This document shows positions 40,202-42,182 of a stretch of DNA of 64,000 nucleotides, piece after piece (positions within the stretch are counted from its first letter, which is position 1; every line of letters starts with the position of its first letter). The stretch is from an uncultured Ulvibacter sp. (GTDB lineage Bacteria > Bacteroidota > Bacteroidia > Flavobacteriales > Flavobacteriaceae). The stretch is taken from the NCBI GenBank assembly GCA_913063405.1, contig CAJXZB010000018.1:1-64000 (forward strand). The letters run 5' to 3'. The position numbers were made by a program, and so were the translations under genes. Under the pieces are notes generated by a model. The model was not told the origin of the DNA. It did no database searches and saw only the letters and a list, made by a program, of their open reading frames with translations.

Positions 40202-40209
40202 TAAATTTG
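40202..40209 (+). promoter_or_regulatory. -7 promoter element of the propeptide-lipoprotein/subtilase pair
   Basis: TAAATTTG is an exact TAnnTTTG match. It lies 8 bases before ATG 40217 and 23 before ATG 40232. Confidence 0.5.
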
Positions 40210-40231
40210 TTATACTATGGTAAACCCTATT

Positions 40232-40555
40232 ATGAAAGCAAGATTTTCAACTCTAACTACATTGGTGATTGCCCTTATTTGCTTTAACTCTTGTAAGAAT
40301 TTGGATACTACACAGACTGAAGATAACTCAGACTTATTAGTACAAGTTTACGAAGAGGGTGCTATAAGTGCTTTAGAAGATACATATGGGGCATATGAAC
40401 TTCAGAAAGTGAAAATGGTAAGTAGATCTATGAATATTTACCTCTTTACTTTCAATTCTAAAAAAATTAGACAAAATGAGTTGATTCAATTATTAAAGAA
40501 TTCCGATTTAGTGAAAGAAGCTCAGTCAAATAAAAATGTTGAACCAAGAAATTAA
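40232..40555 (+). CDS. Lipoprotein resembling a free subtilase propeptide (putative protease inhibitor/chaperone)
   Basis: 107 residues from the ATG at 40232, which gives a clean lipoprotein signal ending CFNSCKN; an upstream ATG at 40217 is less likely. The mature part lines up by eye with the propeptide of the next gene over about 75 residues. It shares LVQVYEE (IVQLAEN there), VSRSMNIYLF (ISRPLNIWLL), and LLKNSDLVKEAQSNKNVEPR (LYRNENVLVAQKNHKVSSR). It contains no protease domain. It lies 7 bases before the subtilase and shares its promoter. The simplest reading is a membrane-anchored I9-like inhibitor or folding helper for that enzyme; this is inferred from similarity and position. Confidence 0.72.
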   Translation: MKARFSTLTTLVIALICFNSCKNLDTTQTEDNSDLLVQVYEEGAISALEDTYGAYELQKVKMVSRSMNIYLFTFNSKKIRQNELIQLLKNSDLVKEAQSNKNVEPRN

Positions 40556-40562
40556 TTCTATT

Positions 40563-42182
40563 ATGAAAAAGATACTACTACCAATCGTACTGCTTGCAAC
40601 CTTTTTTTGCCAGGCACAACAGCCCGAATATGTGAGGGACCAGGTAATCGTTCAATTGGCCGAAAATGTAGACACCAATTTGATCTCACAAGAAATTACA
40701 GATTTTAATATTACTGGGAGCAAGTTAATCTCCCGTCCATTAAATATATGGTTGTTGCAATTAGCGCCATCTGCTATAGACGAAACTATTGCTATACAAA
40801 AATTGTATAGAAATGAAAACGTATTAGTTGCTCAAAAAAACCATAAGGTAAGTTCACGTGCCACAGAGCCGGATGACCCTCTTTTCAATAGTCAATGGCA
40901 ATATAAACAAGCCAGCGATGGAGATATAGATGCAGACGAGGCTTGGGACATTACTACTGGAGGTACCACAATGAATGGTGATGTGATTGTCGCTGCTGCC
41001 TTAGATGATGGTATTGACTTGAATCACGAAGATTTTGAGGACAATCTATGGACCAATGAAAATGAGATACCAAATAATGATATCGATGACGACAATAATA
41101 ATTACGTAGACGATTATCAGGGTTGGAGTATTGTGACCGATGACGATAATATTTCTGGTGGAGGTCACGGAACACCTGTCGCAGGGATTATTGGCGCTAA
41201 AGGAAATAATGGTTTAGGTGTTTCTGGTGTAAATTGGGATGTAAAAGTGATGGTCATTAAAAATAATTTTAATACCAACGAGGCACAGGTTATTGAGGCG
41301 TATAGCTATGCGCTCGAAGCTAGAATGTTGTATAATGCTACTAATGGAGCCGAGGGGGCCTTTGTGGTTTCCACAAACGCTTCTTGGGGTATAGATTTTG
41401 GTGACCCTGCCGACGCACCATTGTGGTGCGGTTTGTACGACACCTTAGGAGAAAATGGTATTTTAAGTTGTGGGGCTACTATCAATGGTAATTTTAACGT
41501 AGATTTAGTGGGTGACCTGCCAACAGCTTGCCCGAGCGAATATTTAATTACGGTTACCAATATGGATATAACCGATATGAAAGTAACTCAAGCAGGATAT
41601 GGATTAGTAACTATCGATTTAGGAGCTCATGGAGCAAATGCATTTACCACTGCGGCTGGGAATGGATATGGAGGTTTTGGTGGTACATCTGGTGCGACCC
41701 CTCACGTTACAGGAGCAATAGCTCTTTTGTATTCTGCACCTTGTCAAAGTTTTGCAGATCTAGCGATTTCAGATCCGGCACAAGCAGCTAGAGACGTTAG
41801 AGACTATATTTTTGCTGGAGTAGATCCAAACCCTTCCCTGGATGGAATTACTACGACTGGAGGAAGACTTAACTTAAATAATGCCTTACTCGGTTTAATG
41901 GATGATTGTGTTATACTTTCAAATGGTGAATTCCAAAAACAAAACAATCCGTTTTCGTTACACCCTAATCCTTCAACACAATTTGTTCTCATACAGCATA
42001 ACGAAAACATTGCCGTAGCAGCCGTTGCTATATATAGTTTAGATGGCAAGATGGTTCAAGACCATACACAAGATTCAACAAACACATTAGATATAAGCAG
42101 TCTTGCGAATGGTATTTACGTTGTGCGTATATCATTTGAAGGTGATGCAAATGTGTATAACCAGAAGTTGATTAAAAAATAA
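40563..42182 (+). CDS. S8-family subtilisin-like peptidase with T9SS sorting domain
   Basis: 539 residues from ATG 40563, which leaves a normal signal peptide (about 1-18, ending CQAQ); an in-frame ATG 27 bases earlier lies inside the preceding gene. Propeptide about 22-98. Catalytic triad D148 (ALDDGID), H202 (GGHGTPVAG) and S376 (GGTSGATPH). The C-terminal ~75 residues form a type A sorting domain (LHPNPSTQF, IYSLDGKMV, LANGIYVVRI, YNQKLIKK). It should be exported by the type IX system with PorQ's help and act on extracellular protein. It ends at a long hairpin. Confidence 0.94.
   Translation: MKKILLPIVLLATFFCQAQQPEYVRDQVIVQLAENVDTNLISQEITDFNITGSKLISRPLNIWLLQLAPSAIDETIAIQKLYRNENVLVAQKNHKVSSRATEPDDPLFNSQWQYKQASDGDIDADEAWDITTGGTTMNGDVIVAAALDDGIDLNHEDFEDNLWTNENEIPNNDIDDDNNNYVDDYQGWSIVTDDDNISGGGHGTPVAGIIGAKGNNGLGVSGVNWDVKVMVIKNNFNTNEAQVIEAYSYALEARMLYNATNGAEGAFVVSTNASWGIDFGDPADAPLWCGLYDTLGENGILSCGATINGNFNVDLVGDLPTACPSEYLITVTNMDITDMKVTQAGYGLVTIDLGAHGANAFTTAAGNGYGGFGGTSGATPHVTGAIALLYSAPCQSFADLAISDPAQAARDVRDYIFAGVDPNPSLDGITTTGGRLNLNNALLGLMDDCVILSNGEFQKQNNPFSLHPNPSTQFVLIQHNENIAVAAVAIYSLDGKMVQDHTQDSTNTLDISSLANGIYVVRISFEGDANVYNQKLIKK

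Follow-up and report, generated by a model that had tools for sequence, protein, structure and literature searches.

A predicted lipoprotein homologous to the propeptide of the adjoining T9SS-type subtilase in an uncultured Ulvibacter sp.

Subtilase propeptides are described as possessing a C-terminal tail that reaches into the active-site groove (PMC6993865), and putative subtilases of the type IX secretion system (T9SS) are described as being inhibited by their own propeptide (PMC11982257). Propeptide-like proteins can also be encoded separately from an enzyme. SUB1-ProM is encoded beside SUB1 and is reported to be a potent and selective inhibitor of it, with POIA1, the yeast peptidase B inhibitor, Arabidopsis SPI-1 and TgMIC5 named in the same source as other stand-alone proteins of the I9 type (PMC6993865). 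Among Bacteroidota, the KLIKK proteases of T. forsythia, which are T9SS proteases, are all described as being preceded by small ORFs for predicted lipoproteins (PMC4404884), and the potempins are said to specifically inhibit the protease with which they are coexpressed, a statement for which the source cites data to be published (PMC7296668). The sequence-only reading of the locus described here had supposed that a pairing of a T9SS protease with a lipoprotein inhibitor might be undescribed, but these KLIKK proteases and potempins precede it (PMC4404884, PMC7296668).

The window analysed is a stretch of 64,000 nucleotides from an uncultured Ulvibacter sp. (contig CAJXZB010000018.1, positions 1 to 64,000 of the forward strand). 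A gene for a predicted lipoprotein of 107 aa (forward strand, ATG at 40232 to stop at 40555) was identified in it as a stand-alone propeptide homologue using ORF analysis, BLASTP and profile comparisons. Its stop lies 7 bases from the ATG of a downstream subtilase of 539 aa on the same strand (40563 to 42182), and these positions and sizes are the same as those first read from the sequence. The lipoprotein is encoded as a separate ORF that includes a signal peptide and ends in a stop of its own, and no larger enzyme precursor is cut to release it. The signal peptide and lipobox (40232 to 40294, forward strand) end in CFNS followed by Cys21, with a non-canonical Phe at the -3 position, and the Cys is present in all 16 lipoproteins gathered in this study; with these features the product is probably a bacterial lipoprotein. 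After Cys21 a short linker leads to the propeptide-like domain (residues 32-107, 40325 to 40552, forward strand), which has the element order strand-helix-strand-strand-helix-strand and ends one residue past a conserved Arg106. This domain was delimited with AlphaFold2, Foldseek, structural re-alignment and sequence alignment.

The signal for surface export of lipoproteins in Bacteroidota (LES) is described as K-(D/E)2, or a comparable stretch of acidic residues, following the Cys (PMC5080379). Residues +2 to +6 behind Cys21 are KNLDT, without a LES-like acidic run, and a LES-like motif behind the Cys was found in none of the 16 lipoproteins, with L118 possessing two consecutive acidic residues near it. 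This makes a periplasmic orientation more likely, and the lipoprotein probably faces the periplasm.

Upstream of the gene, TAAATTTG (40202 to 40209, forward strand), 30 bases 5' of the ATG, matches the pattern TAnnTTTG, which we take to be the -7 promoter consensus of Bacteroidota. As a sequence pattern, found within 120 bp upstream in just 3 of the 16 lipoprotein genes, it weakly suggests a candidate promoter. A second in-frame ATG lies at 40217, 15 bases 5' of that at 40232. The position of the pattern suggests a transcription start nearby, which would favour the ATG at 40232 over that at 40217.

The partner shows the traits of family S8, namely the subtilisin fold and catalytic Asp, His and Ser (Peptidase_S8, E 2.8e-26), and is a predicted T9SS cargo (Por_Secre_tail, E 1e-12). 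Its own propeptide (about residues 20-100, 40620 to 40862, forward strand) was assigned from a match to PF22148 (Fervidolysin_NPro-like) and from an element order as in the lipoprotein. PF22148 scored 19.1 bits on residues 17-93, below the cut-off of 21, and 22.6 bits on the same propeptide in the genome search. The catalytic domain (about residues 101-449, 40863 to 41909, forward strand) was assigned by structural match to deseasin MCP-01 (3vv3), with which the modelled domain aligns at Z 49.2, rmsd 1.5 and 34% identity. We take the catalytic triad, assigned from motifs, to be Asp148, His202 and Ser376; across 53 aligned sequences H202 and S376 are invariant and D148 is present in at least 90%. 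A T9SS type A sorting domain (41961 to 42179, forward strand) was identified by a match to a C-terminal sorting-tail profile. The window's genome was found to contain SprA_N matches as well as 138 T9SS sorting-tail matches at E up to 1e-3, and for this reason very likely possesses a T9SS.

The lipoprotein and the propeptide of its partner had previously been aligned by eye, and BLASTP bore this out with an ungapped alignment of 26% over 72 residues (E 5e-6, the value for one single comparison). The score of the window pair was reached by 0 of 2000 shuffles of the lipoprotein (z 8.6). When all 16 pairs were shuffled 2000 times, the score was never reached in 13 of them, and was reached by 1, 3 and 11 of the 2000 shuffles in L084, L093 and L118, respectively. 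A profile built from only three lipoproteins hit 12 subtilase propeptides of this and other genomes (E 5e-11 to 6e-7), and one built from eight hit subtilase-length ORFs at E <0.01 in 69 of 80 named loci. Comparison of 14 lipoproteins with 68 propeptides of unpaired subtilases using hhalign gave a probability of 99.4% and E 1.8e-21 over 76 columns. A chance alignment is ruled out by BLASTP, the three-lipoprotein profile, the shuffles and hhalign, and on these sequence comparisons the resemblance of the lipoprotein to its partner's propeptide is homology.

The ends of the two were also found to match, as had been claimed for them. Subtilase position 100 is the alignment partner of the last residue of the lipoprotein, and the mature chains of deseasin MCP-01 and thermitase, as present in their solved structures, begin to align at position 101, so that the lipoprotein ends at the predicted start of the mature enzyme. 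All 16 lipoproteins have their C-terminus 1-5 residues past the conserved Arg that aligns to the propeptide end. Pfam shows no peptidase domain in the lipoprotein, in agreement with the earlier statement that it has no catalytic domain. No match near a curated cut-off was obtained for it in Pfam or NCBIfam, and none of the Pfam propeptide models was listed at E up to 10.

AlphaFold2 modelling of 14 lipoproteins gave block means of pLDDT of 93-97 across residues 31-100. The model of the lipoprotein has the element order b-a-b-b-a-b, and the same order was found in residues 23-94 of the subtilase model, which supports the shared fold expected from the sequence-only reading. The top PDB match of the lipoprotein with Foldseek was the prodomain of PC1/3 complexed with furin (probability 1.00, E 0.014, rmsd 1.8, TM 0.80 by target); no match in this search was at E 0.001 or better. 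Structural re-alignment again placed the PC1/3 prodomain entry first (Z 8.7, rmsd 2.0, 67 residues); Boca/Mesd and ACT-type domains came within 1 Z of this entry, and the propeptides of subtilisins scored Z 6.9-7.5. The modelled fold is a common one that is not decisive alone, and it agrees with the homology seen in sequence. A sequence search of the PDB with the lipoprotein profile returned four matches at E up to 10, of which the best (E 0.14) is not meaningful and none is named potempin. The AlphaFold2 model of the subtilase was also considered as docking evidence; it aligned with propeptide-containing chains at rmsd of about 23-27 only, and as it does not reproduce the known docking of a propeptide, it was set aside as unusable and says nothing on binding.

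Sixteen distinct lipoprotein-subtilase pairs were gathered, two of them from the window's genome, where the second pair lies on another contig and has a subtilase 60% identical to the first. Searching 397 genomes of the family identified eight full-length lipoproteins in seven genomes, each adjoining a subtilase (a count that omits six weak partial matches in G409, G389, G359, G173, G156 and G134, E 6e-5 to 8e-4). The same genomes contain 16 subtilases of the subfamily (14 genomes, E up to 1e-40), eight with and eight without a lipoprotein; among the unpaired eight, that of G344 is distant and the contig of G202 starts 702 bp upstream of the gene. Neither the lipoprotein nor the subtilase was among the matches listed for G001 and G003, members of the window's genus. 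In a scan of named genomes, the lipoprotein was present at 13 of the best 80 of 151 subtilase relatives, including Marinirhabdus gelatinilytica, Altibacter sp. HG106, Aureisphaera galaxeae and an uncultured Dokdonia, and its absences (67 of 80) are upper bounds, some of the loci being incomplete. Five of these 13 pairs are on the same contigs as loci from the family search, which gives the total of 16. Homologues of the peptidase therefore have the lipoprotein nearby in 8 of 16 and 13 of 80 cases (the latter being the best of 151), in line with the idea of a recurring pair. L107 and the second ORF of L119 were left out as having no propeptide, and the partial subtilase of L099 was kept for its propeptide. 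A second small ORF at L137, tried as a further lipoprotein, proved to be a truncated tandem subtilase and was also left out.

Spacing between the two genes ranges from -4 to 18 bp in 13 Flavobacteriaceae-type pairs; it is 4 bp in L113, 7 bp in L118 and 62 bp in L111. L113, from a Saprospiraceae MAG, has a reversed order, with the lipoprotein 4 bp downstream of the subtilase. Nine pairs share a common site, where the gene in front of the pair is presumably an S1-like ribosomal gene; on all eight of the contigs that extend far enough, a gene that we take to be pyrR-like follows the pair. At a second common site, two pairs follow a gene whose product has Cys motifs of the ferredoxin type. L063 (G361:C7) at this second site has the subtilase without the lipoprotein, and a small hydrophobic ORF occupies the spot, as if the partner had been lost or replaced. 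In a search of the order (395 genomes), the window's own genome was the only one in which a full-length stand-alone lipoprotein was found; of the remaining matches two were subtilase propeptides, and the count omits five weak partial matches (G206, G698, G535, G593 and G492, E 4e-4 to 8e-4). A search with PF22148 of 178 genomes of the phylum gave one small frame (109 aa, with an internal stop) among the 28 matches listed, but as this model misses the window's lipoprotein, such a search says little on free-standing copies.

When the 16 lipoproteins were placed in a tree with 84 propeptides (89 columns, with many unresolved forks), 14 of them formed one starred clade (98/96), whereas L111 and L113 were placed among the propeptides on long branches; a single clade for all 16 was not rejected (p-AU 0.66). 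An independent origin of every lipoprotein is contradicted by this clade, which points to an old split from the propeptide, the 14 not being recent copies of their neighbours. Mean identity over 13 pairs was 0.45 for the lipoprotein, 0.46 for the propeptide and 0.78 for the catalytic domain. For these pairs, lipoprotein distances were correlated with propeptide distances (Mantel r 0.84, 0 of 2000 permutations) and with catalytic domain distances (Mantel r 0.76, 0 of 2000). The correlation is one of co-diversification, which co-inheritance alone would give as well. The lipoprotein gene is under purifying selection: of nine comparisons, two had unsaturated dS, and these gave dN/dS of 0.09 and 0.20. 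A mobile-element gene was also considered and discarded, as no relative was confirmed in viral contigs and no PHROG match was obtained.

Relatives were also identified further afield, some of them beside other classes of T9SS cargo, an extension that the sequence-only reading had not anticipated. A profile of the 16 lipoproteins searched against 395 genomes of the phylum found a solitary lipoprotein of 108 aa in G940 (L184:4299-4625), which matches PF22148 at 29.6 bits, above the cut-off of 21; the nearest S8 match on its contig lies more than 370 kb away, with other S8 matches in the genome. Among 170 genomes of the family of G894, recognised as Saprospiraceae from the presence of the L113 locus in its member G1264, matches at E up to 1e-5, subtilase propeptides included, were found in 140. 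From the upper ranked list 40 loci were chosen, 20 with short frames and 20 with frames of about 250 aa, and the class counts that follow cover these and four earlier loci (L181-L184). A partner on the same strand and no more than 250 bp away was found for 15 of 21 short lipoproteins, the 153-aa ORF of L233 being omitted as a truncated subtilase. This partner is an S8 peptidase in three cases (one of which, L215, is the L113 locus itself and so not independent of the profile), an M14 carboxypeptidase in five (L218, L222, L224, L226 and L229, the class being given by similarity to two members named by Pfam) and a large T9SS protein in which no peptidase domain is recognised in seven. In these seven (L221, L225, L227 and L231-L234) the lipoprotein lies directly upstream of a T9SS protein of 1000-1100 aa, and the three of these large proteins that were tested showed no Pfam domain besides the tail and weak SprB repeats.

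Proteins combining DUF6438 with the prodomain were found just downstream of M43 (pappalysin-type) metalloproteases in 12 of 22 cases (L237:2267-4340, L238, L239, L242, L245, L246, L248, L249, L252, L253, L181 and L182), most of these proteins having a lipobox-like Cys. DUF6438 was not mentioned in the open-licence papers searched. Three further loci came close: L235, with an M43 gene 346 bp away, L219, where unknown bases interrupt the subtilase frame, and L251, where a hidden ORF follows the M43 gene after 26 bp. At L183:5852-6550 a DUF6438 and propeptide-like lipoprotein has no adjoining protease, and the gene diverging from it is presumably Cas9-like. Partners of the M14, M43 and large classes showed no match to the prodomain profile at their N-termini (best E 0.18). 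A neighbour with a T9SS tail, on the same strand and no more than 350 bp away, was present for 28 of 39 propeptide-like small ORFs in the 40 loci but for 12 of the 197 others (Fisher p 3e-18), a contrast that is only indicative because the tail profile was built from 13 partner proteins and the loci are the top matches of one family. Ten of the 12 other ORFs adjoin the same cargo genes, and the 39 omit the 153-aa ORF of L233 and the ORF of L251, which is hidden beneath another. The adjacency to M14 and M43 enzymes suggests that one fold has been reused with unrelated protease clans. As a tentative idea, which we hold to be somewhat short of even odds, lipoproteins of the propeptide fold, derived from S8 propeptides and sometimes fused to DUF6438, might across the phylum be cargo-specific periplasmic gatekeepers of S8, M14, M43 and large T9SS cargo.

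For the lipoprotein of the window, we give slightly better than even odds to a role as a trans-acting, product-like inhibitor that guards the periplasm before the subtilase is exported. This is suggested by its end at about the point where the propeptide would be cut, its probable periplasmic side and the passage of the protease through the periplasm before export; since T9SS cargo takes this route, an exporter of potent proteases needs protection there. Lipoprotein and protease would probably be made from one transcript, after which the lipoprotein would be lipidated and kept on a membrane, facing the periplasm. Its ferredoxin-like domain would dock onto the catalytic domain, its free C-terminus lying in the active-site cleft and resembling a cleaved propeptide. 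The subtilase's own propeptide would guard each molecule until cut, and the lipoprotein would bind and silence those molecules whose propeptide was lost too early, until export by the T9SS separated and released the enzyme from its guard; an additional folding role may also exist. The sequence-only reading had suggested a membrane-anchored protein that keeps a T9SS-exported protease silent. Of this, the following are supported: a free homologue of the propeptide, a lipobox, a T9SS cargo as partner, a predicted fold shared by the two and conservation of the pair. The claim of an undescribed pair type is not supported, given the T. forsythia precedent. Against inhibition stand the propeptide that the subtilase already has in cis, and the lack of an adjoining lipoprotein at 8 of 16 subtilases (397 genomes) and 67 of 80 named loci. 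The non-canonical -3 Phe of the lipobox, the paired acidic residues of L118 and the failure of the subtilase model to reproduce propeptide docking also count against this reading. Furthermore, some relatives in Saprospiraceae lie beside large T9SS proteins in which no peptidase domain is recognised, and plain inhibition does not explain the lipoprotein there.

The lipoprotein may instead be a foldase in trans that aids folding or maturation of the subtilase in the periplasm, as Aeromonas ORF2 does for ASP, with inhibition as a side effect. Most subtilase propeptides are described as assisting folding (PMC6993865), ORF2 is described as both chaperone and temporary inhibitor of ASP (PMC5638518), and the lipoprotein and propeptide co-diversify. 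However, ASP is propeptide-deficient (a reference in PMC5638518) whereas all 16 paired subtilases keep their propeptide, and the unpaired relatives do without a lipoprotein, leaving a foldase rather unlikely in our judgement. An escort that recognises, delivers or holds T9SS cargo in the periplasm, whatever the activity of that cargo, would accommodate the contrast in T9SS-tailed neighbours and a range of partners comprising S8, M14, M43 and the large class without a recognised peptidase domain. Yet two lipoproteins were found in the window's genome against 138 sorting-tail matches, which indicates that the lipoprotein is no general export factor, and in the Flavobacteriaceae-type sample the partner is a subtilase in all eight cases; we regard an escort as distinctly unlikely. 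Membrane-anchored inhibitors of external proteases exist and would be a precedent for a shield directed at foreign or sibling proteases rather than at the partner enzyme. Such a shield is made very improbable by the lack of LES-like motifs in all 16 lipoproteins and by the tight linkage and co-divergence with the partner. A short gene that ends cleanly where the propeptide does would also fit a tandemly duplicated 5' end of the subtilase gene that is now decaying, but this is contradicted by the dN/dS values from the two scorable comparisons, the Cys and Arg conserved in all 16 and the starred clade of 14, and we give it hardly any credence.

The potempin fold is an OB-like beta barrel and not a propeptide. 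As with the potempins, whose partners comprise serine and metalloproteases, a small lipoprotein gene here lies directly upstream of a T9SS protease; the difference is that the lipoprotein here is a propeptide paralogue. The six T. forsythia ORFs are described as having no significant mutual sequence similarity (PMC4404884). With SUB1-ProM the lipoprotein has in common that it is a free propeptide-like protein whose gene adjoins that of a protease having its own propeptide, but SUB1-ProM, like the other I9-type proteins, is eukaryotic and no bacterial lipoprotein. According to the same source (PMC6993865), significant sequence similarity to propeptides is missing in POIA1, the yeast inhibitor and SPI-1, whereas the lipoprotein is significantly homologous to that of its partner. 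It would be a rare stand-alone propeptide-like protein clearly homologous to the propeptide of its partner, pointing to an origin by duplication and not convergence.

Among bacteria, ASP and ORF2 of Aeromonas sobria likewise form a two-gene subtilase system, in which the C-terminus of ORF2 is described as binding around the catalytic site (PMC5638518); there ASP has no propeptide and ORF2 lies downstream, whereas here the lipoprotein lies upstream and the subtilase propeptide is kept. PopD of Myxococcus xanthus similarly holds the secreted subtilisin-like PopC in a complex before secretion, but PopC is predicted to have no signal peptide, PopD is described as inhibiting secretion, and export requires a TonB-dependent transporter rather than a T9SS (PMC6434023). 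The C10 proteases of Bacteroides are also co-transcribed with small exported candidate inhibitors, Bti and Bfi, some of which are predicted lipoproteins; these differ in that C10 enzymes are cysteine proteases and Bti and Bfi are staphostatin-like (PMC3462683). No description of a lipoprotein paralogous to its partner's own propeptide was found in the open-licence literature searched. The arrangement is accordingly not wholly new: pairs of a lipoprotein inhibitor and a T9SS protease are known, and what is added is a propeptide paralogue as a predicted lipoprotein beside a protease that retains its own propeptide. In environmental Bacteroidota, a propeptide thus appears to have become a separate gene and a membrane-anchored partner, with the protease keeping its own copy.
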